Of a stretch of DNA of 64,000 nucleotides, positions 1,131-59,135 are shown one piece after another. How positions within the stretch are numbered: position 1 is the stretch's first letter; the number at the start of each line of letters is the position of its first letter. Below the pieces are notes generated by a model, which was not told the origin of the DNA, did no database searches, and saw only the letters and a list, made by a program, of their open reading frames with translations. Location: contig JASEVX010000338.1 in the NCBI GenBank assembly GCA_031761405.1, positions 113,666 to 177,665 of the forward strand, read 5' to 3'. This DNA comes from Serripes groenlandicus (taxonomy: Eukaryota > Mollusca > Bivalvia > Cardiida > Cardiidae). The translations under genes and the position numbers were made by a program.

Positions 1131-1417
1131 CAAAGTTTAATTGGTAAATAAAATTGGTAAAAAATGTGTATATTATGATTGGTAAAAATTATATACCTAT
1201 ATGTTAATATGTCCAATATATGGTTAACACATAACACGTTTTGAATTTTGTATATATATATATATATAGTATGTTGTATTATGGGCCTGAGGCCTAATTA
1301 CTGAAATTGTATTGTATACATATTTGTAAAAGTGTATAGACAAATCACAACGGTAGCATTTACCTACTTACTTACTAAGTGGGGAACATGCCATTGGAAA
1401 ACTAGTCAAGACCTGGG

Positions 1418-3835: not shown

Positions 3836-4039
3836 TTAACCCTTTCCCACATACAGACACTTTTTGAAGCCTCCGCAGCAGATTACTTTTGAAAACGTTT
3901 TGGCAAATTGAGAAATTTTTCATAATGTTTTCAACTGTATTCTAAAGCAAACCTTTAATAAAAACAGATTTCAATATTTTCAATACAGACGATTTCAAAG
4001 TGGTCTACTGCAGATTTGTTGTTTGTAGGAAAGGGTTAA
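3836..4039. mobile_element. TTAA-flanked MITE (piggyBac-like)
   Basis: Starts TTAACCCTTTCCCACATACA and ends TTTGTAGGAAAGGGTTAA, with the internal 'gaaaacgttttggcaaattg' half of the central palindrome. This is the complete copy from whose ends the flanking arrays were built. Confidence 0.8.
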
Positions 4040-5569: not shown

Positions 5570-5990
5570 CTACTGATATTTGATGACATATTCAGGGTAG
5601 TACTGGTTGCAGTCAAACAGACAAAAGATCCGTGGTTTGTCTGACTCATCCACACAGCAGTCATACAGCCGAGATTTTGAATCTTTTGGATCCAACTGCG
5701 GTGGTCTTTTATAGCTTGGATCGCCGACTGTCCATTTTCCGGCCAAAACTCGGCATTGGAACATGTATTTGTAGCCATCGGAGTCTGCCTGAGCGTATCC
5801 ATCTGAGTACTTGGCCTCCTTGGCAAAGTATGTTCCCTGCCCAAATAAGGAGCCCACGCGTTCCCCAGCGAGTCGGTGATCGAGGTTGTTTTCACAGATT
5901 ATGTCGAGAAAATCTGGCAATGTACCATGATAAAGGTCCAGTTCGTTGGCACATCCTTGTCCATAGGCAGTCTCAAACTGTCTCCTTTTT
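5570..5990 (-). CDS. MIB-PARP exon 20: C half of the PARP catalytic domain and stop (aa 862-1001)
   Basis: Encodes ELDLYHGT with catalytic H883, then GSLFGQGTYFAKEAKYSDGY with Y916, S924 and Y927. Y916 corresponds to PARP1 Y896; S924 and Y927 keep the spacing of the nicotinamide-contact residues S904 and Y907. The domain ends KPRIFCLFDCNQYYPEYVIK. The position of PARP1 E988 is I983, so the triad is H-Y-I, as in mono-ADP-ribosyltransferases, and not H-Y-E as in PARP1 or tankyrases. The stop TAG is at 5572-5570. Acceptor ATTTCAG. Confidence 0.96.
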
Positions 5991-8900
5991 CTGAAATATT
6001 ATGGTTTATTGCAAAGAAATGTTTTGAGAACAGAAAAGATTGATAGAGGATACTTTTAACTTATGTTCTTGTTTAACCGTTTTCTCATATACAAACATTT
6101 TGACCCCTCTGCAGCTGAAGACCATTGAAATCATGGTGACAAAAGGAGAAATTGCTCATAATGTTTTCAACAATAACTGTACCATCATTTAAAGAGATAC
6201 TTTGAACCATTGCCTCAATGTTTTGTAGTCATATGATGCAGATTAAAGAGTTGATTACAGATAGAAATGTCCACATATCATAAAATAAATAAAACTAGAG
6301 GGCCATGATGGCCCAGGATCGCTTGCCTGAATTATTCCATGTGATTACATGTTCAAACCTACCACAATAACTTTTTTTTACCAACCAATGTGCCTTGCAG
6401 AAATCTTGTAGAGGGTCACCCAAGGAACATTTCTACAAAATCATTTGGAAATTGGCCAGATACTTTCAGAGAAGAAGATTTCTATAGTTTTCAATATAAC
6501 CATACAAGACAAAACACCCTACCCCAGGTGACCACATTCTCCCACAGATCAATATGGCTTGAAAAAATCAGTTAAATGGTCTCCCAAGGAAAGTTTCTAC
6601 AAAATTATTTGGAAAATGGACAGACATTTTGAAGACGAAAAGTGTTCAATATAGCAATTCTAGAATGGAGCACATGTGTTACCTGCACCTGCTCAATGAA
6701 AGTGTGACGAAAAGTGTGACGGACAGACAGACGGAGACGCCAGACAAAAAAAAAGTAATCCCTAAGTGCCTACCATGCTACGCAGGGTGACGCAATAACG
6801 CAAAATGGCGGCCATGTTTTTCAACCAATCAACATGGCTTGAAGAAATCTGATAGAGTCACCCAAGGAATATTTCCACAGATTTTTTTAAAAAAGAACCA
6901 ACAAGTTTTGGAGGAGAAAAATGTTTAAGTTTTTTTCTTTTGGTTGCCATGGAAACTAGAAATATACATGGATCAAAAAGATTTGAAGGAAATGTGGTGA
7001 GGACATTATGAGGACTCTTTCTGTGAAATTTCATCCACATTGACCCAGTGGTTACAGAGGAGAAGATGTTGATGCACGGACGACGCATGACACGTGTCGG
7101 ACAAAGGGCGATCACAATAACTCACATTGAGCACTTTATGCTGAGTTAAATGAGCTCATATACTTACAGATAATAATGCTCCCACATGAATTTATTCTGA
7201 ATCCTTTCTATTTTGAAGATTCTTGCCTGTGGCATAGTTCGACAGAAGTTATTCCTGACCCCTAGGAATTCCTTGTTCAGTAGACCGTTTGTGGTGTCCA
7301 AATTGACCTTTATTAGTGTGTCCCCTTTTCCCATGCTGTCCCAGTGTGTAGGGAGCATGACCCCTTTCTGTGAAGTTGCAAAGTTTCTCTTGGACGCTTG
7401 CATGGCCAGTCTGAATAATTAATTTAATTCTTATTATAAAAGGTGCTGAACCACAGAAAACAGATATTATAGTCAAAGTTTTAAAACTGTTTTGAAATAT
7501 GAGAAACAAAATACCGGAATGCAATTAAGAGTAATAATTTCACTTTCCAGTACCAGAAATATCTAAATATTGATCGTTTATGCTTAATGTTCACTTGGTA
7601 GACATAGCCAGTAAGGCGGCAAGTTTTGTACATTTTCATGACTTTCAATTGACAGTTTTTCAACATTTACTGCCAAAAAAGGTTTAAATTCTTTACTACT
7701 TACTGTGTTGTCTATATTAGCAATATTTGCAGAAGTTTCAACATTACAACAATTTGATCTCCATCTGGAGTTCAGCACATTTAAGATCAAATATAAAAGA
7801 GCTATAGCTCCTCCAAGAATTTCGAGTCTAAATTTGCTCAAAATGTTTTGTTTCTTACCCTATACCTCATTTAGAAGCTTTCTGAAGTCTATACTTTAGA
7901 CGACTTTTGAAAACATTGTGGTGAGAGGAGAAAGGGCTAATAATGAGCAATTTCTTGTTTTGCCACAATGTTCTCAACTGATTTTAATGATTATTAAACT
8001 GTCATTTTTGGAGATTTTCGTGTTTTGCCATTTGGTGTTCTAAGTCATCTGCTTAAGATGTGTTGCATGTGGGAAAGGGGATATAACTCTGAAAAGAATT
8101 TCGAATCTCATAAAGCTGACAATACATCTTGTTTCTTCAGCTTCCAGTAAAGCTTCATTCAATTTGAGACTCCAATTGTTTGTAGATACACCTGCATTGT
8201 CTACAAAAAAAAAGAGTCTGGTAGTTTGTTCGTTTTCAAAGTTTTTACTCTATACAAATAAGGAAAACAAGCAACAAGAAGATTTTTAAAGATTTTACAA
8301 TGCACATATAAGGAAAACAAGCCTCACCCCTGGCGGCCATGTTTCTTCAATGGATCGGATTAATTTGAACAATCTTGGTAGAAGGTCCCCCAAGGAATAT
8401 TTGTGCCAGATTATCTTCAAGAAGATTTCTAAAGATTTTACAATGGACATATAAGGAAAACAAGCGGCAATTTTTTCAACGACTCGGAAAAATTTGAACA
8501 ATCTTGATAGAGGGTGCCCCAAGGAACATTTGTGCAAAATTCTTTTCAAATCAAGCCAGTACTTTTGGACAAGAAGATTTTTAAAGTTTTGGCAATTTTC
8601 CCCTTTTCTGATTCCGCAGAAACCAACGTTCTACTTGGATTTTAATTCTTTGAACAAGTATAAAAGAGGACCACATAAGGAACATTCCTGTGAAGTTATT
8701 TTGAAATCAGTCCACTGGTTTAGTAGGAGAAGTCATTTGTAGGAAATTGTTAACAGACGGATGTACAGACGGCGCAGGACGACGACTACGACGCCGGATG
8801 ATCACAAAAGCTCACCTCGCACTTCGTGCTCAAGTGAGCTAAAAAGCCAGTAACACAAACAACTGACCTTTTCATGAATTCTCTAGTAGTTGTGTCTGTG

Positions 8901-11900
8901 CACAAGTCCAAGGGTGTTTTGCCATCTTTGTTTTTGATGTCGACATCTGCACGTGCCTCGAGCAGCAAGCATGAGATTTGTATCCCAGTATCGTCGTTCT
9001 TGATGGCTACACCAAGTAACTTTGCTAGCTGGAATTAAGATTTTCTTTAATAAAACATTTTGCATCTGCATACACTTTCTAACCCCTCTGCAGCACACAA
9101 CATTTTAAAACATAATGAGCAATAGAACAATATATCTCTATTTACCACAAAACTGTAATTAATAATTAAGCTCATTTATGGAGATCTTCCATAATTAAGC
9201 CTAGCTATCGTCTTCTGCTGATTTGTTGTATGTGGGACGGGGAAGAGCTAAATGACAATTATTCTTAACCCTTTTCCTTATAACACAAATCTGCAGCAGA
9301 AAACTTAGAAAATATTTAGTCAAAAATATAGCTTCAATAAATGAAAGAAAAATTATTAAATAAAGTTAAAAGCACTGTGGCATAAACATAAATTGATTGC
9401 TTTCAATTTCTCAATTTTGTCACATTGTTTTCAAAAGTCGACTATTGCAGTGGAAGCAGAGAGCGTCTGTAAGTGGGAAAGTGGGTAAAAATGATTTTCT
9501 TGTTTTGAAAAATGGGCTGCATCATGGGATAAACATATATACAGTATCATATCCAACCTGCATTTTAACACATTTGAAAATATCAGGGCAAAATGATAGG
9601 TATACTTCTTTTGCCACATTGTTATTAAATCTATTCAAAAATTATATCTTTATTTATAGTGTTTTCCTCATGTTTGTTTGAATGAATGTAAAGTAACTAG
9701 ATATCAATATTACTGATTAAAATGTCGTTTAAACTAACTTGTTGCTAGCTTTATAATCTTTACAACTATGCTCCCCAAAGTGAAATAGTCAATTATGCGC
9801 GGCGAGGGTTAACAAATTCAACTGACCGACATTACAATCATGTGACATCTTTAATCATCGTATTGAAAACAAATCAAGTCATTATAATTTATTAACTTTT
9901 AAAAACATCTTCTTAGTTTCATTTTACATGTTGAGAGAGAGTTAGGTGGAGTTATATTTGGACCGATTTATGTTTGAAATCGGGGAGCCAATTGATGGAG
10001 ACCTTTCAAACTGCCACACTACAATAGACGCTACCTCAGTGGTACCGTCCAAAAAGTAGATAGCTCCAAACATAGCAGGCCATAGTTAAAGTTTCTTGTA
10101 TTATTTGATTCTACTGACGCAATGTACATGTATCAGTATCGCAACTCAAAGGTAAAGATGGACAGACAATGAAGAAGCTATCCCTTACCAGCAGGTGACA
10201 GAAAAAGGGCACATACCTGATCTGGCAATGCACGACTTATCTGTGCAACATGTAGAGGAGTGTTTCCTTGATTATCTTGTAAGTTGACATCACATTCTGA
10301 AAAACAATATTATGAACCAGCATTATACAAATAAACTTTAAATAAAAATTATCAAATTAATCACATTGCTTACATTGTTCAGTAATTTTACTTTCATTTA
10401 CAGAGATTTTCCAGCTTTTTGCATTAATATTTTCAGAGTTGTCTGCTGCATATTTGTTTTATGTGGGAGAGGGTTTACAATAAGATTATATATTTTGTTT
10501 CATATTATTTATTTAACCCTCTTCTTCTGAAAATCACAATTTGAAGCATCTGCAGCAGATAATTTTTGAAAACATAGTGACAAATGGAGAAATTGTATCC
10601 AAAAACAACCCTATTACATAATTGCATATCATTATTCCTTATAGAGTTTTTAATATTTGTATCATGATCTTTTACAAGTCATCTGCTGCAGATGTGTTTA
10701 TGGGGGGGGCAAAGATTACATTAAACCCTTTTACCTTAACCCTTTCCCTCATACGACAATTCTGCAGCAGACGACTTTGAACATATTTTGTCAAAAAATA
10801 TAAAATCTCTATAATTGAAAGGATGACTAAAAGTGGAAAACATTGTGGCAAAAGGAGAAATTGCTTGTTTTGAGCAATTAACCCTTCCCCTCATACGACA
10901 ATTCTGCAGCAGACGACATTGAACATATTTTGTCAATAAATTGAAAATCTCTATAATTCAACTGATAACCTGTGACTTAAAGTGGAAAACATTGTGGCAA
11001 AAGAAGAAATTGCTGGTTTCTTTTGTCACTGCAGAGGCGTCAGAAAGCGTCAGAAATCGTCAAAATGAGGAAAAGGGTTAAATAGACATCAATCAGTAAA
11101 GAGCCTGATCTGAATTAAAGTTCTGTTATTTAACAGTGAAACAGGAATGTTAACCCCTTTTCACACTTACAGCAAATCTAAACCAGATGACGTTGAAAAC
11201 ATCTTGGAACAAATATTGCAAATCTCTTTTGTCCCACATACGATGAATCTACAGCAGAACAATTGAAATAACAGGGCAATGATGGCCCTGGATTGCTATC
11301 CTGATTTAATATAACTTGTTAAATGGTCACCCAAGGAGCACTTCAGCCAGGTTATTTCAAAATCAAACCACTACTTTTGATAATTTTTTTTTAAAGGTTT
11401 CACCATATATTCATACAAGGAAATCAAGCCCCATCCTCTAGCAGCCATGTTTTTCAACGGATCATAATACTTTGAACAATCTTGGAAGAGAGTCACCCAA
11501 GAAACATATTTTCCAGTACTTTTGGACAAAAAGTCTTTTAATTTTTCACCATTCATACATAAAAGGAAAACAATTAAGTGGCGGATCGGAATAATTTGAA
11601 CAATTTTGAAAGAGGGTCACCCAAGGGACATCTGTGCCTTGCGGCCATGTTTTTCAACAGATTGGACAGTATTGGATTCAAAGTACAATGGGTCAATTTT
11701 CTTTTTAATCTGGACAGTAGTTTTTGACAAGAAGATTTTTATTTCATGAGTTCAGCATGGAATTCAATTATATGAACAACTTTAAAAGGAGATAATCCAA
11801 GGAACATTCCTTCAAAGTTTCAAAATTGGCCAAGATGCTGTTTGAAGAGAATAATGAGGGCCGACGGACAAAGACCGGTCACAATAGCTCACTCTGAGCC

Positions 11901-14900
11901 TCTGGTAAGCTAAAAACCATATCCAAACAAGAAAATGTGTCCATGGAACACGGATGCCCCGGTTGTTAACTATATTTTAAAACGGACGGACGAACAGTTG
12001 GTCCAACCTCAAATTGATACAATTTTTTAAACAATGATATGTTGATTGTCATTTGTGTGAAGTTTCATAATGATAGGACATCAGGTTCACTAAAATCTAA
12101 CTTGACCAAAAACTTTAACCTGAGAATGGAATGGACGAACAGACAGACGAACAGACGGATGAACAGTTGGTCCAACCTCAAATTGATACAATTTTTTAAA
12201 CAATGATATGTTGATTGTCATTTGTGTGAAGTTTCATAATGATAGGACATCAGGTTCACTAAAATCTAACTTGACCACAAACTTTAACCTGAGCGGGACG
12301 GACGAACGGACGGACGGACTAACAGACCGGAAAACTATATGCCCCTCATACCTCGTATGCCGGGGCATAAAAATATGGAAACTCTTTATCAATCAAAGAA
12401 TAATAAGATCTAGCAGTATAGAGTTGAAAACATATTGGCAAAACGAGAAAATGCACATTATGAGCAATTTCTCCCCTTTGCCACATTTTTTATCTAAAGT
12501 TGTCTGCTGCAGAGGCATCAGAAAGCATCTGTATGTGGGATGAGCAGTGACTCATTGTGAGCAATTTCTGTTTGCAATAGTGTTTTCAAAACTCGTTTAC
12601 TGCTGATATGTGAAATGTATCTGTATGTGTGAAAGTGTTTATAAAATAATATTGTAAATTATGAATTAATCCTTTACCTGATGATATTACTTTTGTAGAC
12701 TTTGAGATGGAAAATAATACTGAGCAATTCATCTTTTTTACATAATGTTTTTCTACTCAGTACTGATATAAAATCAAAGTACAACGTGTTAATAACCCAT
12801 TTTTATCTGATATGTTTTAAAATCAAACGATTGTTATAAAAAACTTAATCCGGAAAATAAAATAACTAAATCATGGATTCTTATCACTTTCCAAAATGCA
12901 GACACATTTAAATGCATATAGAGAAATTGTTTACACTTAGCAATTTATCCTCTTGCCAGAATGTTTACAATAAGCAATTTCTCCTCTTGCCACAATATTA
13001 ACAATAAGTAATTTCTCCTCTTGCCAAAATGTTCACACTAAGCAATTTCTCCTCTTGCCACAATATTAACAATAAGCAATTTCTCCGCTTGCCACAATAT
13101 TAACAATAAGCAATTTCTCCTCTTGCCAAAATGTTAACAATAAGCAATTTCTCCTCTTGCCAGAATGTTTACAATAAGTAATTTCTCCTCTTGCCAAAAT
13201 GTTAACAATAAGCAATTTCTCCTCTTGCCAAAATGTTAACAATAAGTAATTTCTCCTCTTGCCACAATATTAACAATAAGTAATTTCTCCTCTTGCCAAA
13301 ATGTTCACAATAAGCAATTTATCCTCTTGCCACAATATTAACAATAAGCAATTTCTCCTCTTGCCACAATATTAACAATAAGCAATTTCTCCTCTTGCCA
13401 CAATATTAACAATAAGCAATTTCTCCTCTTGCCAAAATGTTAACAATAAGCAATTTCTCCTTTTGCCAAAATGTTAACAATAAGCAATTTCTCCTCTTGC
13501 CACAACTTTTCAATTCTAGTCCATACTTAAAGGATACTTTCATTTATAGAGATTATCCATGGTTTTGCCTAGATGTTTCCGAAGTATTTTGTTGTATGTG
13601 ACAGATGGTTAAAAAAAGGTTCATCAGGTAAATCGACAAGTAACCAAACATAAGTAAATGGTCAAGTTACCAAACATAAGTAAATGGACAAGTTACCAAA
13701 CATAAGTAGATGGACAAGTTACCAAACATAAGTAGTTTGGACAAGTTACCAAACATAAGTAAATGGATAAGTTACCAAACACAAGTAAATGGACAAGCTA
13801 CCAAACATAAGTAGATGGACAAGTTACCAAACATAAGTAAATAGACAAGTTACCAAACGTAAGCAGGAGCTCGATCATCCTCTTGTGACTCTGTGAGACA
13901 GCAATGTGTAGTGGACTTCGGTGTGTATTATTAACTGCATTCTTATTTGCTTTGGCCTTAAAAATAAATTGCCATTCATGTTTTCATAAAGCCTATTTAA
14001 ATTGTAAACCCTTACCCACATACAGCAAATTTGCAGCAGACGACTTTGATAAAATAGTGACAAAAACCTGAATAAATCTCCATAAATGATAGCTTAATTG
14101 TTGAAAACATTGTGACATCAGCAGTTTCACCTTTGGCCAAAATGTTTTTAAAAGTCGTCTGCTGCTATTGCGCAAAAATGCGTCTGCATGTGGAAACAAT
14201 TTCACACACAATTTCTCCTTTTGCCTCAAGGTCTTAAACTTTATTTAAACATATTTCTTTCCTTTATAGATATTCCATATTTTTATTTAACATGTTCAAT
14301 GTCGTGAGCTGCAGATTTGTGGTATGCGGCAAATGTTTTTTAAAAGAAAAATACTATTGGGTACATTTTGTTGTACAAATTATTTTCTGTAGATATAAAA
14401 ATCAGCCAGAATTGACATATTTTGTTTTCATTCATCAGTACCATGGCAATGATCAATGCAGCTATTGTTTATAAGAAAAAAAAAACATTTCTCAACTACA
14501 CACACATTTTGATGTGTATATAGCAGACAACTTTTGAAAACATTGTGGTTAAACAAGAAATTGCTTGTAATGAACAATGTCTGCTCTTACCAAAAAGTCA
14601 TCATCTCTGAGCAATAATCAAACCTTCATACAGAAGTTCCTTATTTTTGGCTTAATATTTATTTAAGTTATCTGCCCCAAAGTTGTTGTATATGGCAGAT
14701 CTGTTGTATATGGCAGAGTTGTTGTATGTGGCAGAGATGGTGTATATGGCATATTTGGTGTATATGGCATAGATGGTGTATATGGCAGATTTGTTGTATA
14801 TGGTGCAGAGTTGTTGTATGTGGCAGAGATGTTGTATATGGCAGAGTTGTTGTATATGGCAGATTTGTGGAATTTGGCAGAGTTGTTGTATGTGGCAGAT

Positions 14901-17900
14901 TTGTTGTATGTGGCAGATTTGTTGACTGTGGCAGATTTGTTGTATATGGCAGAGTTGTTGTATGTGGCAGATTGGTTGAATGTGGCAGATTTGTTGTATG
15001 TGGCAGATTTGTTGTATGTGGCAGAGTTGTTGTATATGGCAGATTTGTTGAATGTGGCAGATTTGTTGTATGTGGCAGATTTGTTGTATGTGGCACAGTT
15101 GTTGTATGTGGCAGAGTTGTTGAATGTGGCAGATTTGTTGAATATTGCAAATTTGTTGTATATGGCAGTGTGTTTATATGTCTCTGTATATTGGAAAGGT
15201 TACAACTTCATTTATGCAGATTCCTTCTTAATTTTTCCCCAGATATTTCCAAATTTGTCTGCTACAGATTTGTGGAAAGGGTTAAACTTTTCCATTAAAC
15301 AGTAAATCTGCAGCAGACGACTTTGAAAGCATCTAAAATAGATATTGAAAGTCTCAAGAAACAAGAACGCCATGATGGCCCTGGAATCACTCACCTGATT
15401 TTTTTGTTCTCACCTTAGCTATATAAACCCCGCCCCCTGGCGGCTATAGTTTCCGACCAATCAACTTGGCTGAAAGGAATCTGATAAAGGGTCACCCTAG
15501 GAACATTTCTACAAAATTATTTGAAAATCGGCCTGACACTTTTGGAGGAGAAGATTTTTTAAGTTTTCACTATAGCCATATAATGCAAAATAGCCCTGCC
15601 CACTGGCGGCCATATTTTTTGACCAATCAACATGGCTTGAAGGAATCTGAAAGTGGGTCACTTAAGGAACATTTCTACAAAATTATTTGAAAATCAGCCT
15701 GACACTTTCAGAGAAGAAGATTTTTTAATTTTTCACTATAGCCATATAAGGCAAAATAGCCCCGCCCCCCTGGCGGCCATGTTTTTTGACCAATCAACTT
15801 GGCTTGAAAGAATCTGATAGACGGTCATCCAAGAAACATTTCTACAAAATTATTTGAAAATCGTCCTGACGCTTTCGGAGGAGAATATTTTTTAAGTTTT
15901 CACTATAGCCATATAAGGCAAAATAGCTCTGACCCCACCCCCCCCCCCTGGCGGCCATGTTTTTCGATCAATCAACATGGCTTGAAAGAATCTGATAGAG
16001 GGTCATCCAAGGAACATTTCTACAAAATTATTTGAAAATCGGCCTGACACTTTAGGAGAAGAAGATTTTTTAAGTTTTCACTATAGCCATATAATGCAAA
16101 ATAGCCCCGCCCCACCTGGCGGCCATGTATTTTGACCAATCAACATGGCTTGAAGGAATCTGATAAAGGGTCACCCTAGGAACATTTCTACAAAATTATT
16201 TGAAAATCGGCCTGACACTTTTGGAGGAGAAGATTTTTTAAGTTTTCACTATAGCCATATAATGCAAAATAGCCCTGCCCACTGGCGGCCATATTTTTTG
16301 ACCAATCAACATGGCTTGAAGGAATCTGAAAGTGGGTCACTTAAGGAACATTTCTACAAAATTATTTGAAAATCAGCCTGACACTTTCAGAGAAGAAGAT
16401 TTTTTAATTTTTCACTATAGCCATATAAGGCAAAATAGCCCCGCCCCCCTGGCGGCCATGTTTTTTGACCAATCAACTTGGCTTGAAAGAATCTGATAGA
16501 CGGTCATCCAAGAAACATTTCTACAAAATTATTTGAAAATCGTCCTGACGCTTTCGGAGGAGAATATTTTTTAAGTTTTCACTATAGCCATATAAGGCAA
16601 AATAGCTCTGACCCCACCCCCCCCCCCCCCCCCCCTGGCGGCCATGTTTTTCGATCAATCAACATGGCTTGAAAGAATCTGATAGAGGGTCATCCAAGGA
16701 ACATTTCTACAAAATTATTTGAAAATCGGCCTGACACTTTAGGAGAAGAAGATTTTTTAAGTTTTCACTATAGCCATATAATGCAAAATAGCCCCGCCCC
16801 ACCTGGCGGCCATGTATTTCGACCAATCAACATGGCTTGAAGGAATCTGATAATGGGTCATCTAAGGAGCATTTCTACAAAATTATTTGAAAATCTGCCG
16901 ACCAGTTTGGGAGAAGAAGATTTTTTAAGTTTTCACTATAGCCATATAGGCAAAATAGCCCCGCCCACCTGGCGGCCATGTTTTTTGACCAATCAACATG
17001 GCTTGAAGGAATCTGATAGAGGGTCATCCAAGGAACATTTCTACAAATTATTTGAAAATCTGCCAACCAGTTTGGGAGAAGAAGAATTTTTAAGTTTTTT
17101 TCATTTCGTTGCCATGGAAACCAGAATTCTGCATGGATCCCAAATATTTGAAGGAAATCTGGTGAGGTCATTGAGAGGATGCTTTCTGTGAAGTTTCATC
17201 CCAATTGACCCACTGGTTACTGAGGAGAAGAAGTTGACGCACGACGGACGACAGATGCCGGACAAAAGGCGATCACAATAACTCATCTTGAGCAAAGCTC
17301 AGGTGAGCTAATAAAAGTGTAACAATTTACTATTGAATAGAGTTGGAAACATTGTGACAAAAGGAGTAATTGTTCAAAATTAGCAATTTCTTCTTTGGCC
17401 ACAATGTTTTCAAAAGTTGTTTGCTTCAAAGCATCTGTATATAGGAAATGGGGTTAAAAGGCTGTAGAAATGCCATGTAATACCTTTAGGAGTGCACTAG
17501 CAATTTCTGTATGGTTATTAGCAGCACAGATGTGCAGGGCTGTAAAACCTTCCTCCATCTTTTCATCCAACAGTTTAGGACTTTTCCCTATAATAATCTC
17601 AGCGGCCCTGCAAAAGTAACATTTTTCTCAACCATTTTCCACATACAGAATCGGATGCTTTCTGACGCCTCTGTAGCAGACAACTATCGAAGATATTTTG
17701 GAACAAGCAAATTCAGAGAATTATGGTCCCCCGCTTTGGGGCTCTTATTGGTCAGGGTCAAGGTCACAAGGTCAAAATTGGTATTGATGGAAAGGGGTTG
17801 TCACAAGGAATACACATGTGAAATATGAAAGCAGTACCTATTACGGTTCAGAAGTTATGACCAAGGTTAAAGTTTTTGTGACAGCGTGACGGAGGGACTG

Positions 17901-20900
17901 ACGGACGGACTGACTGACGAATGAGATTTAATGTCCCCGACGTTTTACTTCGTAAAGCGGGGGACAATAAGGAGAAAATTCTACTCATGCCCAGATATTT
18001 TTCAATGTCATCTGCTGCACATTGTTTGTATGTGAGGAAGGGCCATGACACAAAAATCATCTAGAAACACATAATTATTGTGAATATATATAAAAGATAT
18101 ACAATGCAGAAACTCACCGGGATAAGACTTAACCCTTTCCATCATATAGACACTTTTTGACCTCTCTGCAGCAGACGGAATTTTGAAAACATAGTGACAA
18201 AACGAGCAATTTCTCCTTTTGCGACAATGTATTCCACTTTTATTTTAAGGTTATTTATTTAATTATAGAGATTTTCTATTTTTTGACAAACTAGAACTAT
18301 CACTGAATGTGATTAATACCCCCGAACGCCGCCCTGATAGGAAAGGTTGTGAAATATTTAGAAACCCCACCTTAAAAGGACAATGTTATGGATCGGGTTA
18401 TTCTTGTTTTGTTCATTTTTGGATAACAAAGGGCAATAACACTGTAATTATGTAAAGTAGAGTTATGGTTCTTGTACACTGCACTTCCTCTGATTATGCT
18501 CTACCGTTGTATGTAGTTTTATTAGATTCCATCTGTTAGTTATTAAATAATTCTCCGGACAAGAAAAAGTAACATAGGGCAATAACTCTGTATTTAGGTA
18601 AAATAGAGTTATGGTTCCTGTACACCGCACTTCCTCTCAATGTGTTGTATCATCCTATGATGTTTAATTAATTCCAACAATTAGTTTTAAAGTTATGCTC
18701 CGGACAAGACTCTACGAACAAGAAAAAGTAACAAAGGGCAATAACTCTGAAATTATGTAAATTAGAGTTATGGTTCTTGTACACTGCACTTCCTCTGATT
18801 ATGCTCTACCATTGTATGCAGTCTTATTATATTCCATCTGTTAGTTATCAAGTAATTCTCCGGACAAGAAAAAGTAACAAAGGGCAATAACTCTGTATTT
18901 AGATAAAATAGAGTTATGGTTCCTGTACACCGCACTTCCTCTCAATGTGTTGTTTCATCCTATGAAGTTTTATTAAATTCCAACAATTAGTTTTAAAGTT
19001 ATGCTCCGGACAAGACTCTACGAACAAGAAAAAGTAACAAAGGGCAATAACTCTGCAATTATGTAAATTAGAGTTATGGTTCTTGTACACTGCACTTCCT
19101 CTGATTATGCTCTACCATTGTATGTAGTTTTATTAGATTCCATCTGTTAGTTATTAAGTAATTCTCCGGACAAGAAAAAGTAACAAAGGGCAATAACTCT
19201 GTATTTAGATAAAATAGAGTTATGGTTCCTGTACACCGCACTTCCTCTCAATGTGTTGTATCATCCTATGAAGTTTTATTAAATTCCAACAATTTGTTTT
19301 AAAGTTATGCTCCGGACAAGACTCTACGAATAAGAAAAAGTAACAAAGGGCAATAACTCTGTAATTATGTAAATTAGAGTTATGGTTCTTGTATACTGCA
19401 CTTCCTCTCATTATGCTCTACCATTGTATGTAGTTTTATTATATTCCATCTGTTAGTTATTAAGTAATTCTCCGGACAAGAAAAAGTAACAAAGGGCAAT
19501 AACTCTGTATTTAGGTAAAATAGAGTTATGGTTCCTGTATATTGCACTTCCTCTTAATGTGTTGTATCATCCTATGATGTTTTATTAAATTCCAACAATT
19601 AGTTTTAAAGTTATGCTCCGGACAAGACTCTACGAACAAGAAAAAGTAACAAAGGGCAATAACTCTGAAATTATGTAAATTAGAGTTATGGTTCTTGTAC
19701 ACTGCACTTCCTCTGATTATGCTCTACCATTGTATGCAGTCTTATTATATTCCATCTGTTAGTTATCAAGTAATTCTCCGGACAAGAAAAAGTAACAAAG
19801 GGCAATAACTCTGTATTTAGATAAAATAGAGTTATGGTTCCTGTACACCGCACTTCTTCTCAATGTGTTGTTTCATCCTATGAAGTTTTATTAAATTCCA
19901 ACAATTAGTTTTAAAGTTATACTCCGGACAAGACTCTACGAACAAGAAAAAGTAACAAAGGGCAATAACTCTGTAATTATGTAAATTAGAGTTATGGTTC
20001 TTGTACACTGCACTTCCTCTGATTATGCTCTACCATTGTATGTAGTTTTATTAGATTCCATCTGTTAGTTATTAAGTAATTCTCCGGACAAGAAAAAGTA
20101 ACAAAGGGCAATAACTCTGTAATTAGATAAAATAGAGTTATGGTTCCTGTACACTGCAATTCCTCTCAATGTGTTGTATCATCCTATGAAGTTTTATTAA
20201 ATTCCAACAATTTGTTTTAAAGTTATGCTCCGGACAAGACTCTACGAATAAGAAAAAGTAACAAAGGGCAATAACTCTGTAATTATGTAAATTAGAGTTA
20301 TGGTTCTTGTATACTGCACTTCCTCTCATTATGCTCTACCATTGTATGTAGTTTTATTATATTCCATCTGTTAGTTATTAAGTAATTCACCGGACAAGAA
20401 AAAGTAACAAAGGGCAATAACTCTGTATTTAGGTAAAATAGAGTTATGGTTCCTGTACACTGCACTTCCTCTCAATGTGTTGTATCATCCTATGAAGTTT
20501 TATTAAATTCCAACAATTAGTTTTAAAGTTATGCTCCGGACAAGGAAAATCGCAACGGACCAACCGACCGACCGACCGACCGACCAACCACAGGGTGACT
20601 CCAATATACCCCCTCTAAACTTCGTTTATCGGGGGTATAAATATGTTCAAAGTCGTCTGCTGCAGATTTGTTGTATGAGGGAAAGCGTTAATATCATACT
20701 TTCTGCAGTCCTTCAAAGCAGCCAAGTGCAGGACATTGAAGCCTTTCTTGTTCTGTACAGAAAAGTCAGCCCCTTTCGCCTTAAACACAATGTAGATGAG
20801 TAACGATTGGCGTTTCCTCTGTATGATACAATCATGCATCGGAGTGTCACCGTCATTGTCCTGTAAAAAATTAAACCTCATAAAACAAGTCTTTCAATTG

Positions 20901-41900: not shown

Positions 41901-44900
41901 ACCTGCTCCTTTCATTACATTATCCCATCAGGCAAATAGCAATAAAAGCGGCACCCTTTGGACATGGTGTAGCAACTCAAAAAGTACTTTGATTCATTAT
42001 TAACCCTTTCCTTCATACGACAATTCTGCAGCAAACGACTTTGAACATATTTTGTCAAGAAATAGAAAATCTCTTTAATTGAATGGATAACCTATAAAAG
42101 TGGAAAACATTGTGGCAGAAGGAGAAATTGCTTGTTTTGAGCAATTTCTTCTTTTGTCACCATGTTTTCTAAAAGCTGTCTGCTGCAGAGGCTTCAGAAA
42201 GTGTCTATATGAGGGAAAGGGTTACATGTATTTATTCCAAACATCATGTTGTATTGGTCCGCTGTATAGTAATTGTATACCTACTAATTTCTATAAATGT
42301 CTTAGCAATATATAAGGGGAGTTGACCCATCTAGTCACCATTGTTGATTCACTATAGTCCATCGTGTACCAGAGGTGACCCATCTAGCCCCCATTAATGA
42401 TTCACTATAGTCTGCCGGGTACCAGACTAAGATCAATTGTGACTTGGACACTCAAAATTGGTATATTTTTCAATGATTTATCTCCCCTGTATACTGATTA
42501 TTGTTTGGTTTGGATAAATTAATAGAAGCTATGAGATACTCACCAACAAGTGGCAAATGGTCAAAGTAGTATTTGATTGGTCCTGCACTCTCCTCTGTAT
42601 AAATCACATCAACACACCCTTCCCCACCCATTCTATACTCCCCCAACTTTTTGGTTGCCACCCACTTCACCTTGACTCCTCCCCTTGGACTATCCTTCTT
42701 CCAATTGGTTATTTCGGTGACCGTCCCTTCCTCACTAGCACCACCTGTGAAACAAGTTTGTATTTATCTGACCCTATCATGATGATGAAAAAAAAAAGAT
42801 GTTTGACGAAACACATGTCTTGTCTGCCAGTTAAGTCAAAGCATGCAGATAGACAGGCATTTGGATAAGTTCTCCCTAATTTCACCCTGTAAAGGCAGGC
42901 AACACAAATATGTCCTATTCAGTGATATAAAAGAAGAGGGCCATGAGGACCCTGCATCTCTCACACAAACATGATAAAGAAGTATGCAAAAATTCCATTG
43001 GTGGAAGATGAATGACGCATGTCGCATTGACTTTTGTCAGACGTCAGAAATAAAGTTGGCCGAGCCGGGATTCGAACTCACAACCCCTGGATTTACAGCC
43101 CCCGTTGTTACCAACTGAGCTACCGGGGCTCGGCTAGTGTGATAATAGTGATCGTGCTGATTGAAAGTACAGACAATTAACCATAGTGTGACAATAGTGA
43201 TCATGCTGATTGAAAGTACAGACAATTAACCATAGTGTGACAATAGTGATCGTGCTGATTGAAAGTACAGGCAATTAACCATAGTATGACAATAGTGATC
43301 TTGCTGATTGAAAGCAGACAATTAATCATAGTGTGACAATAGTGATCATGCTGATTGAAAGTAAAGACAATTAACTATAGTGTGACAATAGTGATCGTGC
43401 TGATTGAAAGTACAGACAAATTAACCAGCGTGTAACAATAGTGATCATGCTGATTGCAAGTAGACAATTAACAGTAGTGTGACAATAGTGATCATGCTGA
43501 TTGAAAGTACAGACAATTAACAGTAGTGATCATGCTGATTGAAAGTACAGACAATTAACAGTAGTGATCATGTTGATTGAAAGTACAGACAATTAACAGT
43601 AGTGTGACAATAGTGATCGTGCTGATTGAAAGCAGACAATTAATCATAGTGTGACAATAGTGATCATGCTGATTGAAATTACAGACAATTAACCATAGTG
43701 TGACGAAAGTGAACATGCTCATTACTGATTGAAAGTACAGACAATTAACTGTACTGTGACAATAGTGATCATGCCGATTGAAAATACAGACAATTAACTG
43801 TACTGTGACAATAGTGATCATGCCGATTGAAAGTACAGACAATTAACAGTAGTGATCATGCTGATTGAAAGTACAGACAATTAACAATAGTGAACATGCT
43901 GATTGAAAGTACAGACAATTAACTGTACTGTGACAATAGTGATCATGCCGATTGAAAGTACAGACAATTAACTGTACTGTGACAATAGTGATCATGCTGA
44001 TTGAAAGTACAGACAATTTACAATAGTGATCATGCCGATTGAAAGTACAGACAATTAACTGTACTGTGACAATAGCGATCATGCCGATTGAAAGTACAGA
44101 CAATTAACTGTACTGTGACAATAGTGATCATGCCGATTGAAAGTACAGACAATTAACTGTACTGTGACAATAGTGATCATGCCGATTGAAAGTACAGACA
44201 ATTAACAATAGTGTGACAAAAGTGAACATGCTCATTACTGATTGAAAGTACAGACACTTCTATTAATTGAGGGGCTATAACCCCAGCATGATATTCACAG
44301 CTCTTTCAATGATGAAAGAAATGTTAAAAATAACATTGTTTCCAAACATATACGTTTTCTGAGCCCTTTGCTGCAGAAGACTTATTAAAACATTATTTCC
44401 AAATAACAAATTGCTCATAATGATCAATTTCTTATTTTGCCGAAATGTTTCCAACTTTGTTCAATAACAAATCATTCATTTATAGAGAAATTTATATTCT
44501 TTAACTAAATGTCTTCAAAGTCATCTCCTGCAAACTTGTTGGATTCATAAAAGGTTTAAAATGTTACCATCATCATTTTTCCATTTCCAGTGTGGGCCCC
44601 GCATCACTGTTGCCCCAGCATACACCCCGTCAATCTGTTTGGGCGTACTAAAACGTCTTGGTGCCACACCATAACTGCAACAAAATCAGAGAACAAGATA
44701 AGGAAAATTAACCCTTTCCTACATACAGTCTCTTTCTGTTGCCTTTGCAGCAGACAACTTTTGAAAACATTGTGACAAGAGAAGAAATTGCTCAACGATT
44801 TAAAGTTTCATTTTTAGAGAATTATCAAATTTTCATCTGAGATTTTTAAAGTTATGTGCTGCAGAATTGTTGCATGTGGGAAAGGGTTTACAAGTTTTAG

Positions 44901-50900: not shown

Positions 50901-53900
50901 GGCCAGTACTTTTGGACAAGAAGATTTTTCAAAGTTTTAACAATGCACATATAAGGAAAACAAGCTCCGCCCCCTGGCGGCCATGTTTTTCAACGGATCG
51001 GAAATATTTGAACAATCTTGGTAGAGGGTACCCCAAGGAAAATTTTTAAAAATAATTTTCAAATCGGGCCAGTACTTTTGGACAAGAAGATTTTTTAAGA
51101 TTTGGCAATTTTCCCCTTCTCTGTTGCCGCAGCAACCAAAGTTCTCTATGGAATTTAAATCTTTGAACAATTTTGAAAGAGGTCCACCAAAGGAACATTC
51201 CTGTGAAGTTTGGTTGAAATTGGTCAAGTGGTTAAGGAGAATGATCTAAATGTCTAAATGTTAACGACGGACGACAGACAACGGACGATGGACGACGCCA
51301 GACGGACAAAAAGTTATCAGAATAGCTCACCTTGGGTGATCTAAAAAAGGGCCATAATTTGCATAAAATGCAGGATAGAGTTATCTAACTTGATAATCTA
51401 CACAGGTGTGATAGTTGGGTAGGGTTGTAGAAAGTTTCAATGAAATGCATCAGGTAAATACAGAGATATGGACTCCTAATTTAGTTGCACGCAAACCTTT
51501 AAACGCAAAAAGTGATCAGAATAGCTCACCTTGGGTGATCTAAAAAAGGGCCATAACTTGCATAAAATGCAAGATAGAGTTATCTAATTTAATCTACATA
51601 GGTGTGATAGTTTTGTAGGGTTGTAGAAAGTTTCAATGCAATACATGTAGTATTTAAGTACTTGCATGCAAAACCTTAACCAAAGTGTGACATGGATGCC
51701 GACGCCAGGGTGAGTAGTATAGCTCTCATATTCTTCGAATAGTCGAGCTAAAAATGGAATTTCCAAATTTTGTCATTTTGCCCCTTTTCTGATGACACCT
51801 GACTGCCATGTTTTTCAACCAATCAGTATGGCTTGAACAAATTTTGTAGAGGGTCACCAAAGGAACATTTCTATTAAATTATATTTGAATCTGACAAGCA
51901 GATTCAGAGGAGAAGATTTTTAAAGTTTGGACATTTTGCCCCCTTTCTGATGCTGCAGCAACCAAAGTTCTCAATGATTTTGTAACCAATCGATACGGCT
52001 TGAACAAATTAAGTAGAGGATCACTGAAGTAAGATTTCTTTTTAATTTTCTTAATATCAGACAAGCACTTTCAACTTTTCTACTATATTATATTGGAATC
52101 CGACAAGCAGATTCAGGAGAAGATTTTTAAAGTTAGGACATTTTGCCCCCTTTCTGTTGCCGCAGCAACCAAAGTTCTTGATTGAATTTGAATTTTTTAA
52201 CAATATTGAAAGAGTGACACCAAAGGAACATTCCTGTCAAGTTTTGTAGAAATTGGTCTTATGGTTAAGGAGGAGATGATGTTTAAAGCTAAAAGTTAAC
52301 GACGACTGACGACGGACAGAGAGCGATCAGAATAGATCACATTGAGCCTTTGGCGCAGGTTATCTAAAAATAGACAGAATAACTTACGCCCTGGCTTTAT
52401 ATGAGTTCATTCTCATAAAGCCATGTGACAGGTCATGTTTGCCCGTCATATAGCATGTTGTGCACAGGTCATAGTCATTGCATGCTGAACATTTCCATCT
52501 CAAACCAATTAGAGGACGCTCCTTACACTCATCACATGTGATCGTCTCATGTTTCACACCTGTAAAAAGACTTACTTTAGCCTTTCCCTCATATAGACGC
52601 TTTCAGATGCCTCTGCAGCAGACAGCTTTTTGAAAACATAGTGACAAAAGAAGAAATTGCCCAAAACGAGCAATTTCTCCTTTTGCCACAATGTTTTCCA
52701 CTTTTAGTCATAGGTTATCCATTCAATTATAGAGATTTTCTATTTTTTGGCAAAATATGTTCAACGTCGTCTGCTGCAGAATTGTCGTATGAGGGAAAGG
52801 GTTAAGCCTTTCCAACAAATCTGCAGTGGACGACATTGAAACATCTTGGTAAAGATGAGAAAAATCTCTATAATTGAATTGATTAATTGATTGATTGATT
52901 GGGTTTAATGCCGTTTCAACAATGTTTAAGTCATATCACGGCGGCCAGTTCACCTACTCATAAGTTTTCTAGCTTTCTCACACCAGTAAACCACACAACA
53001 CACTTTCCAAGCAACTAGCTGCTTTTTCACATTTACAGACTGTTAGCCCATTATGGTGAAAGACGAAAGACTCTTGTCACAGTGACTTTTGTCAAACGTC
53101 GGTAAGAATGTTGGCCGAGCTGGGATTCGAACTCACAACCCCTGGATTGACAGCCTGCATTGCTACCTGGGGCTCGGTCTCTATAATTGAAAGTATGGTT
53201 ATTGAATAAAGTTGAAAAAATTGTGACAAAAGAGGAAATTGCTCATGATGTGCAATTTCTCCTTGTGTCACAATGTATTCAAAAGTCGTCTGCTGCAGAG
53301 TTGTCAAAATTAATCTATTTGTGAGAAAGTTTTAATATTTGTCCACATAGAGTGACGCATTTTGATACATCTCCAGCGGAAAATGTTTGAAAACAATGAA
53401 GCAACATGAGAAATTGTTTTCAGAATAATCAATTTGTCCTTAAGTATTAGTGGTTTATTTTTTGTAAAATTGAGGCAAAGGGGAAACTGCTCATATAAAT
53501 GATTAATGTATCTTTTAGCATTAATGCTAAATAGGTTATTTTTTCAATTATTGTGAAGTACATTTTGTACTTTCATTTATATAGATTTTTCATAATTTTA
53601 TGACATCCTTTGCTGCAGATTTGTTATATGTGGAAAAGGGGTTAACATTATTAACATTTTCTCACATACAGACGCTTTATGACAAATTTTGAAAAGTGAA
53701 AAGGCAGAAATTACTGAAAAGAGGCATTTACTTCTTTTGCCACAATGTTTTAAACTGTTTTTCAGTAATCATGCCTTAACTTATGGAGATTTTCTGTGTT
53801 TTTACCTCAATCTTTTCAAAGTCGTCTGTTGCATATTTGCTGTATGTGGAAAAAGATTAATGGCTAACAGAAAACAGCCAGCCAGTTGCTTGGAAAGCAT

Positions 53901-56900
53901 GTTGTGTGGAGTACTGGTGTGAGAAAACCAGGAAATATATGAGTAGGTGAGCTGGCCGCCATGATATGACTGAAAAAATATTTCCAGGCAGCAACAAAGA
54001 GAGGTCAAAGGATATTGAAATTGTCACACCATAGAACATTTTGATTTAACTGTAATGGAATCTAACACGGATGTATGGACAGATAAAGGTAAATTTAAAT
54101 GCCCAGACCCCAATCCCCTCAAAAAGTTGGCGCAAAAACATGAAAAGCATTGATGAATACAAATATTGTCAAAAAGACACTCCTAATTTCCCAAACAGCA
54201 ACTCAAAATCAACATGACTCAAAACAAGAGGGCCATGATGGCCCTGGATTGCTCACCTGAATGATACAATGTAATTTGTCATGCCTGCTACAATTACTAG
54301 TTTTTTTTTACCAAACATGCCTTGAATTAATCTTGAAGTGGAACATTTCTTCAAAATCATTTGGAAATTGGCCAGATTCTTTTGGAAAAGAAGATTTTTA
54401 AAACTTTCAATATAACCATATAAGGCAAAACACCCATGCTCAGGTGAGCTAAAAATCCACCTATATTTCCATACCGTAAATGTTAAGACCTATCTACAAT
54501 TAGTCAAGACTAGCCAAGGTAGCTCATTCCGTGGTCAAGCAGGCTCTCAATCCATTGTGAGTTTGCACCTAACATTCTTTCCGACTTTTGACAAAAACCA
54601 ATGTCACATGTGTATGTCATCTGTCTTTCACCAATGGGCTGACAGTCTATGTGGAAAAGCAGCCAGTTGGTTGAAACCACTGTTGTGTGTTGTAAATGAC
54701 TGAGCTTCTTTGTTTGATTTGAGTTTTACGTCATTTCTTTCATAAATATAAATTGTAATACTTTTTCTATGATCCATCAGAAAAAAATAATACAGTGAAA
54801 ATATTTGCCTCACATAAGGGCAATCCTTGGAACTAACAGACAAAATGCCCCACCATTCACACGCACACTAAGGGGTGGGACTTAAAAAGACCAGAACAAT
54901 ACAAACTACTAGAATCAAACAATCATACCAATCTGAGAGTTGTCAAGCATTCGAAGATCATATTTCCCGTCTTTTCCTGCCCTGTATCGAAGTTCTCGAC
55001 CTGAATCCCATATCACTGTGACCTCATTGTCAGACGATCCTTCTTTAGGAACATACACTACAGTACCTAAAATGCATTTTAACCTATTCTTGATACAGAA
55101 GATTTTTTATACAATAAACAAATCTTAACAAATAATCTGTTTTAGGCCCTGTGCCAATCACTTGTGACTTTCAAAGTCTCCTGGATACAACAGTATTATC
55201 ACAAGACCTCGGGCTGAGGGTGTCTCGCCTTTCTAGGAAATTTGACCAAGTGTTTGACCTAGTTTTGAACTTGAACAAGATGTGATCTAATAACTTTTCA
55301 GGAAGATTATATAAAAAATGTGATTTCTAGATTGTTCCTCTCACATTTGACCTAGTGACCTAGTTTTTGACCCCTGATGACCTATTTGTGAAGTTGACCT
55401 ATAATTGATGAAGGAAAATCTAGTGTTTAAACTTGTGAAGATTGAAAGAGACTTCTAGAGTGTTCAAAAGATTATTCCAACATTTGACCTAGTGACCTAA
55501 CTCTTGATACCCCATGAGCCAGTTTAAAAACATGATCAAGATTTGATGGAGACAATTGTTGTGATTAAATTTCATGAAGATTGAATATCAAAAGTGAATT
55601 ATTGAGTGTATACAAGGTTATTTTAACAATTGACCTTGTGACCTAGTTTTGAACTTGACCAAGATTTGATGGAGATAAAGTTTTGGATTACTTTCATGAA
55701 CAATAAATGATGACCTTGACCGTTAACATGTTAAAGCTGAATTATGTCACATGACCCAACAACAAAAGTTTCAGAAAAATTCCAGCAGGGGTTGCTGAGG
55801 TATAACTAAGGTTAAGTTTAGAGGTTAAGTTACCTATCCAAGGTCAAGTTCTGGCAAATAATGACCTTGATTTTGACGTTGAATGAAGTTCCATGTTCCA
55901 ACAATACATCAGACAAAGTTTCAGAAAAATTCCAGCAGGGATAAACCAAGGTTAAGTTTTGAGGTTAAGTAACCTAACCAAGGTCAAATTCTGCCAAATT
56001 ATGACCTTGACATTGAACATTTTAACGTTGAATTATATCCCATGACTAAACAATACATTTGACAAAGTTTCAGGAAAATTCCAGCAGGGGTTGCTGAGAT
56101 ATAACCAAGGTTAATTTTTGAGGCTAAGTTACCTAACCAAGATCAAGTTCTGGCAAATTATGACCTTGACATTGATAATTTTGATGTTGTATTATATATA
56201 GTTATTAGTGAAGGTAAAGAGGTGAAGAAACGGATCTTACCAACATGGCCTTCACCGCCATCTTGTCTTTGTTTTTGCCAGTCTGGTCCACGTATCACCC
56301 GTACACCAGCTTTCATCTATAACAAATTACAACGAAGTATATATGATATTCTCAATGTCCTGTGCTTTAACCCTTTCCCTCATATAGACGCTTTCAGACG
56401 CTTCTGCAGCAAACAGCTTTTTTGGAAACATTGTGACGAAAGAAGAAATTGCTCAAAACTTCTCCTTTTGTCACCATGTTTACAACTCTATTCAATGTTT
56501 GTACTTTCATTTTGAGAAATTTCCATATTTTTTTTTAAATGTTGTGAAAGTCGTCTACCACGGGAATTGTGGTATATGGGAAAGGGTTAACCCTTTCCCT
56601 CATATAGACGCTTTCTGACGCCTCTACAGCAGACGGCTTTTTGAAAACATAGTGACAAAAGAAGAAATTGCACAAAACGTGCAAATTCTCCTTTTGCCAC
56701 AATGTTTTCCACTTTTTGTCATAGGTTATCCATTCAATTATGGAGATTTTCTATGTTTTGACAAAATACGTTCAAAGTCGTCTGCTGCAGAATTGTCGTA
56801 TGAGGGAAAGGGTTAATGGGAAACATATGACCTCAGAAATATTCGAAGTTAACTTTTGATAGACTTGAAAAAAATGAAGGAAAAGGAAGACACAATGTTT

Positions 56901-59135: not shown

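Follow-up and report, generated by a model that had tools for sequence, protein, structure and literature searches.

What becomes of a Mind bomb (MIB) ubiquitin ligase when the RING fingers at its end give way to a different enzyme? The question is raised by a gene on the minus strand of a 64,000-nucleotide stretch of the bivalve Serripes groenlandicus (contig JASEVX010000338.1; this whole stretch is called the window), whose predicted product, referred to here as MIB-PARP, joins a Mind bomb scaffold to a PARP domain. Our reading, which we hold to be probable, is that the protein is a RING-less relative of MIB2 with a PARP12/14/15-type domain at the RING position, produced by one ancient fusion, and that it is likely a mono-ADP-ribosyltransferase whose MIB scaffold chooses the proteins to be tagged.

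Gene model and domain architecture

The gene was modelled on its closest relative, a 997-residue protein of Mercenaria (P0001) that is 58% identical to the rough query. Nineteen pieces of this protein were placed in order on the window by tblastn, with E values of 1.2e-67, 1.5e-27 and 2.2e-18 for exons 19, 18 and 17, a similarity far beyond chance. For each of the 18 junctions, frame-keeping GT-AG pairs matching the Mercenaria relative were compared and the best summed score was chosen. The resulting 19 coding exons run from 56316 to 5570 on the minus strand and span 50.7 kb (Table 1). The joined coding sequence of 2988 bases has its sole stop at the end and encodes 995 residues. GT-AG borders mark all 18 introns and the reading frame runs on through each junction; since the introns fall in all three phases (0, 1 and 2), this continuity is not trivial. 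The acceptors of exons 2, 17, 18 and 19 have scores of -4.0, -4.2, -0.1 and -1.4 in a rough splice matrix, although all four are AG and consistent with the relatives. The window sequence contains no N, and AATAAA motifs are found 12, 126 and 353 bases past the stop.

The initial annotation had proposed twenty exons and 1,001 residues. Homology recovers 19 of these exons, and the three at the end of the gene (9028-8868, 7410-7168 and 5990-5570) join in frame as anticipated, from donor 8868 to acceptor 7410 and from donor 7168 to acceptor 5990. What did not stand is the six-residue first exon near 59135, which is possible, yet finds no support in the N-termini of the 20 relatives inspected. Because AG abuts the ATG at 56316, and because 8 of these 20 relatives begin with the pattern M-x-x-I-K/R-x-G-x-R-V, a short coding exon is likely to lie upstream of 56316.

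The product displays the order Mib_Herc2, ZZ, Mib_Herc2, two Mind bomb SH3 repeats, ankyrin repeats and PARP, which Pfam and homology confirm as first read on the minus strand. The Pfam scores are 130 bits for MIB_HERC2 and 94.5 for SH3_15 (two stretches each), 51.6 for ZZ, 155 for Ank_2 and 62.5 for PARP (PF00644, cut-off 26.7), each in excess of the curated cut-off. The MZM (Mib_Herc2-ZZ-Mib_Herc2), REP (Mind bomb SH3 repeats) and ankyrin array modules of Mind bomb ligases are all represented. Over its first 335 residues the rough model is similar in sequence to human MIB1 (4xi6, E value 9.8e-69), and the fold predicted for the Mercenaria relative resembles, in Foldseek, both the MZM-REP region (4xi7) and the ankyrins (8v0e) of MIB1.

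Neither a RING nor a SAM family is among the ten Pfam families matched by the window protein, and NCBIfam gave matches only far below cut-off, located on the ankyrins. A RING-like cysteine pattern is absent from the window protein and from all 57 MIB-PARP relatives described below, and present in four of four molluscan RING MIB2 controls; neither the Pfam scan nor this pattern search thus revealed a hidden RING. The earlier suggestion that a PARP domain occupies the RING position of a MIB scaffold, in a protein of near-MIB length, is supported.

The border of the exchange was located in an alignment with 11 RING MIB2 rows from molluscs and vertebrates. Similarity is clear up to the last ankyrin repeat (GKTPLDL), with mean BLOSUM62 scores of 3.3 and 2.1 over residues 756-767, decreases to 0.4-0.7 at residues 768-779, and is about 0 at residues 780-791. 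Exon 17 ends at residue 774; the MIB2 homology fades at the junction of exons 17 and 18, where the PARP domain begins.

Relatives and history of the probable fusion

At least 57 relatives of MIB-PARP were found in databases, counted as clusters at 90% identity with isoforms included, and all 40 rows bearing a species label are molluscan. The first protein search returned 1034 matches; among the 120 listed, 48 carry Mib_Herc2 and PARP, and none contains both a PARP and a RING family. A partial Solemya row with SH3_15, ankyrins and PARP is additional to the 48. The 33 species-labelled rows of the 48 belong to the molluscs Mercenaria, Mactra, Mya, Potamilus, Sinanodonta, Ostrea, Magallana, Saccostrea, Crassostrea, Pinctada, Mytilus, Pecten, Mizuhopecten, Argopecten, Ylistrum, Haliotis, Gigantopelta and Patella. 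A search from an abalone PARP region (113 matches) added eight, namely two further abalones, Littorina, Nucella, Pomacea, Batillaria and two without a species label, and its Lingula match is of the PARP12 type. The combination first read from one clam genome therefore recurs in clams, oysters, mussels and snails. Three of the 57 are partial models without Mib_Herc2 (P0046, P0148 and P0153), and P0036 lacks ankyrins. The latter, from Crassostrea virginica, is a 1041-residue protein with three MZM modules (six Mib_Herc2 and three ZZ), no ankyrin family and a PARP domain of the MIB-PARP type.

Among the matches listed by three word-dependent protein searches there was no MIB-PARP outside molluscs, with 17 of the 57 rows lacking a species label and one search missing known abalone members; absence from cephalopods, annelids and brachiopods does not follow from these searches. 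The initial annotation was aware of no described protein of this architecture. No description was found in the open-access literature searched for this architecture or for MIB or PARP repertoires of molluscs (titles and starts of abstracts, a coverage that excludes most subscription papers), and an earlier description elsewhere cannot be excluded; the proteins themselves, however, are already in public databases under other names. Among the matches listed, 24 of the 33 species-labelled rows are named E3 ubiquitin-protein ligase MIB1, MIB2 or mind-bomb, and some MIB-PARP rows bear the UniRef name Poly [ADP-ribose] polymerase.

Seventeen of the 57 relatives come from contigs of 3.1-5.1 kb, each of which holds the whole reading frame. 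Because the window gene spans more than 50 kb, these contigs are very likely spliced transcripts. They bear on the concern that the scaffold and the PARP domain were brought together by a misassembly, or by the wrong joining of two neighbouring genes, a concern to which the spread of the exons over 50.7 kb of repeat-rich DNA, four weakly scoring acceptors and the fact that the joining in S. groenlandicus is read from DNA alone all contribute. Against such an artefact, the same joined protein is present in many named assemblies as well as in the short contigs, and every junction in the window is GT-AG and in frame. We consider an artefact almost inconceivable; the two findings that the initial annotation had named as fatal, ankyrin and PARP exons that are never joined and a misassembly of two loci, both fail against these relatives.

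The two halves of the protein were analysed in separate phylogenies. In the tree of the MIB part (42 rows), 30 MIB-PARP rows and 12 RING rows fall on the two sides of one branch, with a Shimodaira-Hasegawa-like approximate likelihood ratio test (SH-aLRT) value of 98. With five long rows removed, the RING group has a support of 100/100, the gastropod MIB-PARP group 100/100 and the bivalve MIB-PARP group 94/91. In approximately unbiased (AU) tests, a tree in which bivalve MIB-PARP is held with bivalve RING MIB2 was rejected (p-AU 5.2e-5), as was its gastropod equivalent (2.5e-4), and with them independent fusions in bivalves and gastropods. In the tree of the PARP part (58 rows), 33 MIB-PARP rows and one HSP70-PARP protein of Dreissena make up one clan (99/96), within which gastropods (96/82) and bivalves (94/90) separate. 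Both halves thus group the MIB-PARP proteins and separate bivalves from gastropods, and because they show the same history, a single fusion before the separation of the two lineages is the best reading of the sequences.

Two other proteins stand out in these trees. The Dreissena polymorpha protein (P0121, 687 residues), named heat shock 70 kDa protein 12A-like, has a C-terminal PARP domain inside the MIB-PARP clan; a PARP cassette of the MIB-PARP type may have been reused there on another scaffold. The 1360-residue model P0041 of Gigantopelta aegis combines a repeated MIB N-terminus, ankyrins and one RING, and joins the base of the RING group by a long branch; it is either a gene-model fusion or an odd RING-bearing paralogue.

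Since the proposed fusion the scaffold has diverged, more so than in RING MIB2. Mean bivalve-gastropod identity among MIB-PARP proteins (22 by 8 rows) is 44.5% for MZM, 39.3% for REP, 32.9% for the ankyrins (ANK) and 40.7% for the PARP part, means that mix paralogues and are lowered by them; the corresponding values for RING MIB2, from 2 by 2 rows only, are 75.8% for MZM, 65.2% for REP and 71.7% for ANK. The MIB-PARP scaffold shares a mean identity of 46% (MZM) and 36% (ANK) with four molluscan RING MIB2 rows. At 19 positions a residue shared by all 11 RING rows is seldom found in MIB-PARP, where a different one is frequent (>70%), for example H157 (RGPHW) against Asp. With this divergence the client set of MIB-PARP may have changed from that of MIB2, and the suggestion of the initial annotation that the clients are Notch ligands or TBK1-type immune partners is conjectural.

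Predicted activity and function

The PARP part matches PARP12 (8.7e-37), PARP15 and PARP14, then ZC3HAV1 (PARP13) and PARP10, and tankyrases weakly; PARP12, PARP14 and PARP15 are the best matches by sequence and by fold. The first two residues of the catalytic triad are His and Tyr, and the third is Ile or Val in all 47 readable rows. Poly-ADP-ribosylating PARPs, including tankyrase, have Glu at this third position, and the H-Y-I/V triad corresponds to the sequence signature of mono-ADP-ribosyltransferases. From the triad and the near relatives, we infer that the domain is active and transfers single ADP-riboses.

In the mechanism we propose, one ancient fusion after the last ankyrin exon would have put PARP at the RING position. 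MZM, REP and ankyrins would recruit clients as they do in MIB1 and MIB2, and the PARP domain would add a single ADP-ribose, not ubiquitin, to the partners chosen by the scaffold. The proposal follows from the retention of the binding parts and the presence of a different enzyme at the end, and would amount to an output switch, with the same kind of scaffold setting a different tag. MIB1 binds Jagged1 and Delta via MZM and REP (PMC11887331). Self- and partner binding of zebrafish Mib are attributed mostly to the N-terminal and ankyrin parts and not to the RINGs (PMC3979679), and MIB-PARP may on this ground be able to join MIB2 complexes. An oyster gene annotated as MIB2, which may be of the PARP or of the RING type, is listed as a predicted microRNA target in an immune study (PMC4650145). 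A stronger version, which we put forward tentatively, holds that a Notch-pathway ubiquitin ligase of early molluscs became an ADP-ribosyl writer by a swap of its last exons, and that this writer docks on MIB clients and on MIB2 and marks ADP-ribose where MIB2 sets ubiquitin. If so, one scaffold family would have two competing outputs on the same partners, and a Mind bomb protein writing a mark other than ubiquitin would offer a natural model for the exchange of enzymes while the scaffold stays fixed.

Several observations weigh against the reading of MIB-PARP as a scaffold-directed mono-ADP-ribosyltransferase that arose once from MIB2. Its activity and substrates are predictions from sequence, and the triad alone is no proof of activity. 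The greater divergence of the scaffold relative to RING MIB2 makes the sharing of clients uncertain, and the ZZ zinc-ligand pattern is found in 47 of the 57 relatives; the sequences of the remaining 10 are partial or have diverged. For the PARP part, no more than 4% of bootstrap trees recover a group restricted to MIB-PARP rows, since the Dreissena protein is placed within the bivalve ones. Both trees were built without a MIB1 outgroup and their root was not inferred; descent from MIB2 specifically rests on the listed RING relatives being MIB2 rather than MIB1. Finally, the MIB-PARP-like protein P0038 of Sinanodonta woodiana has no PARP domain and ceases to resemble Potamilus P0006 immediately beyond the last ankyrin, and the Haliotis rubra model P0155 ends inside the PARP region. 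These two may be PARP-less isoforms or incomplete models; P0038 departs at the same border where the MIB2 homology fades, as would follow from an intron at this place in the Sinanodonta lineage as well.

MIB-PARP might instead be mainly a regulator of RING MIB2, forming mixed complexes through the N-terminal and ankyrin parts that dilute or redirect the ligase, and ADP-ribosylating mostly itself or MIB2. RING MIB2 coexists with MIB-PARP in Mya (P0098), Mytilus galloprovincialis (P0092), Gigantopelta (P0112) and Nucella (P0078), and the self-binding of zebrafish Mib noted above would provide a route to such complexes. Likewise, RING-dead human MIB2 still binds cFLIP-L, for which the N-terminal zinc-finger region suffices (PMC7815719). 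The retention of the catalytic residues in every readable row, however, goes beyond the need of a pure decoy, and the wide divergence of MZM and ankyrins from RING MIB2 disfavours conserved mixed complexes. We regard a mainly regulatory role as unlikely.

Another possibility is that MIB-PARP has left Notch and the MIB clients altogether and serves in immunity as an effector akin to PARP12, PARP13 and PARP14, with the MIB half targeting or sensing infection-related proteins. The affinity of the PARP part to PARP12/14/15, the MIB half being more divergent than in RING MIB2, and the presence of two or more divergent copies among the database rows of Ostrea, Mizuhopecten, Ylistrum, Pinctada and Haliotis are in line with this role. 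Yet isoforms and several assemblies are included in the rows from which copy number was read, and divergence by itself is no sign of immunity. An immune role is quite improbable in our view, and a mono-ADP-ribosyltransferase guided by a Mind bomb scaffold is the reading we retain.

Features of the window and comparison with known systems

Table 1. Exons and catalytic codons of the MIB-PARP gene, in window coordinates (aa, residues)
Feature	Position	Strand	Basis or remark
Exon 1 (aa 1-25), first part of first Mib_Herc2, MKAGVRVIRGPDW...	56241..56316	-	homology, junction search; AG directly upstream
Exon 2 (aa 26-71), remainder of first Mib_Herc2	54929..55066	-	homology; weak acceptor, -4.0
Exon 3 (aa 72-128), ZZ zinc finger, all eight Cys/His ligands	52388..52559	-	junction search, Pfam, ligand pattern
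Exon 4 (aa 129-164), start of second Mib_Herc2 (RGPHWKWK)	44568..44674	-	homology
Exon 5 (aa 165-231), remainder of second Mib_Herc2	42544..42744	-	junction search, Pfam
Exon 6 (aa 232-274), first Mind bomb SH3 repeat (REP)	33316..33443	-	homology
Exon 7 (aa 275-311), first Mind bomb SH3 repeat (REP)	31973..32083	-	homology
Exon 8 (aa 312-346), second Mind bomb SH3 repeat	31133..31237	-	junction search, Pfam
Exon 9 (aa 347-414), second Mind bomb SH3 repeat and linker	26662..26866	-	junction search, Pfam
Exon 10 (aa 415-463), linker and start of ankyrin array	26030..26175	-	junction search
Exon 11 (aa 464-512), ankyrin repeats	24724..24872	-	junction search, Pfam
Exon 12 (aa 513-565), ankyrin repeats; 3' end copied in 74-nucleotide minisatellite	23434..23590	-	junction search, Pfam
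Exon 13 (aa 566-618), ankyrin repeats	20700..20860	-	junction search, Pfam
Exon 14 (aa 619-660), ankyrin repeats	17484..17607	-	junction search, Pfam
Exon 15 (aa 661-694), ankyrin repeats	13854..13956	-	homology
Exon 16 (aa 695-721), ankyrin repeat	10217..10296	-	junction search
Exon 17 (aa 722-774), last ankyrin repeat; RING MIB2 homology fades at end	8868..9028	-	alignment; weak acceptor, -4.2
Exon 18 (aa 775-855), start of PARP, at position of MIB2 RING region	7168..7410	-	homology, Pfam, alignment
Exon 19 (aa 856-995 and stop), remaining PARP domain with H877, Y910, I977	5570..5990	-	homology, Pfam
Catalytic His codon (LYHGT), residue 877	5927..5929	-	His in 50/50 rows
Catalytic Tyr codon (GTYFA), residue 910	5828..5830	-	Tyr in 50/50 rows
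Third triad position, Ile 977 (PRIFCLF)	5627..5629	-	Ile 42, Val 5, unreadable 3 of 50 rows

Tandem Repeats Finder gave 50 rows in the window, some of them overlapping. At 21381-23488, a 74-nucleotide unit comprises the last 55 bases of exon 12 and the first 19 of its intron, 5' splice site included, and is repeated in two adjoining arrays of 22.3 and 6.5 copies. Together they form a minisatellite derived from an exon, with many copies of a donor site within intron 12. At 32055-32421, the acceptor of exon 7 and its 5' end are included in a 183-nucleotide tandem duplication (99% matches), which places a second copy of the exon start at about 32244. Long tandem arrays crowd the introns and flanks (1404-3878, 15428-17098, 18424-20544, 43135-44236 and others), with periods of 55, 166, 306, 49 and more. 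Ten open reading frames picked from 387 in the window as candidates for other genes gave no Pfam family, and an Rfam scan of the window returned nothing at gathering thresholds.

If MIB-PARP is what we propose, a post-translational writer was exchanged at an exon border, from RING and ubiquitin to PARP and ADP-ribose, on an otherwise kept scaffold, an event that would date back more than 500 million years, provided that the age assigned to the separation of bivalves and gastropods is right. The PARP family gains an architecture, and Mind bomb signalling a testable link to ADP-ribosylation. Molluscan MIB-PARP entries named E3 ubiquitin-protein ligase without the defining RING fingers deserve new names.

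A comparison of MIB-PARP with MIB1 and MIB2 reveals the same order of Mib_Herc2, ZZ, Mib_Herc2, two Mind bomb SH3 repeats and ankyrins, with clear homology to about residue 767. Whereas MIB1 and MIB2 end in RING fingers, none was found in MIB-PARP, which has PARP there and a scaffold more divergent among molluscs. With PARP12, PARP14 and PARP15 it shares a catalytic domain with an H-Y-I type triad; in those proteins zinc fingers, WWE or macrodomains precede PARP, whereas in MIB-PARP the Mind bomb scaffold does, and its PARP domains form a clan apart from the sampled PARP12 and PARP14 rows. Tankyrases (ankyrin-SAM-PARP) likewise place an ankyrin array before PARP. Unlike them, MIB-PARP has no matched SAM, a PARP domain far closer to PARP12, Ile or Val at the third triad position and a Mind bomb N-terminus; the PARP12-like matches, the missing SAM family and Ile 977 rule out a tankyrase. 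In DTX3L-PARP9, an E3 ligase and a PARP are two separate proteins and the RING is retained. That system also couples ubiquitin-ligase scaffolding with a PARP, which MIB-PARP does in a single chain without a RING.
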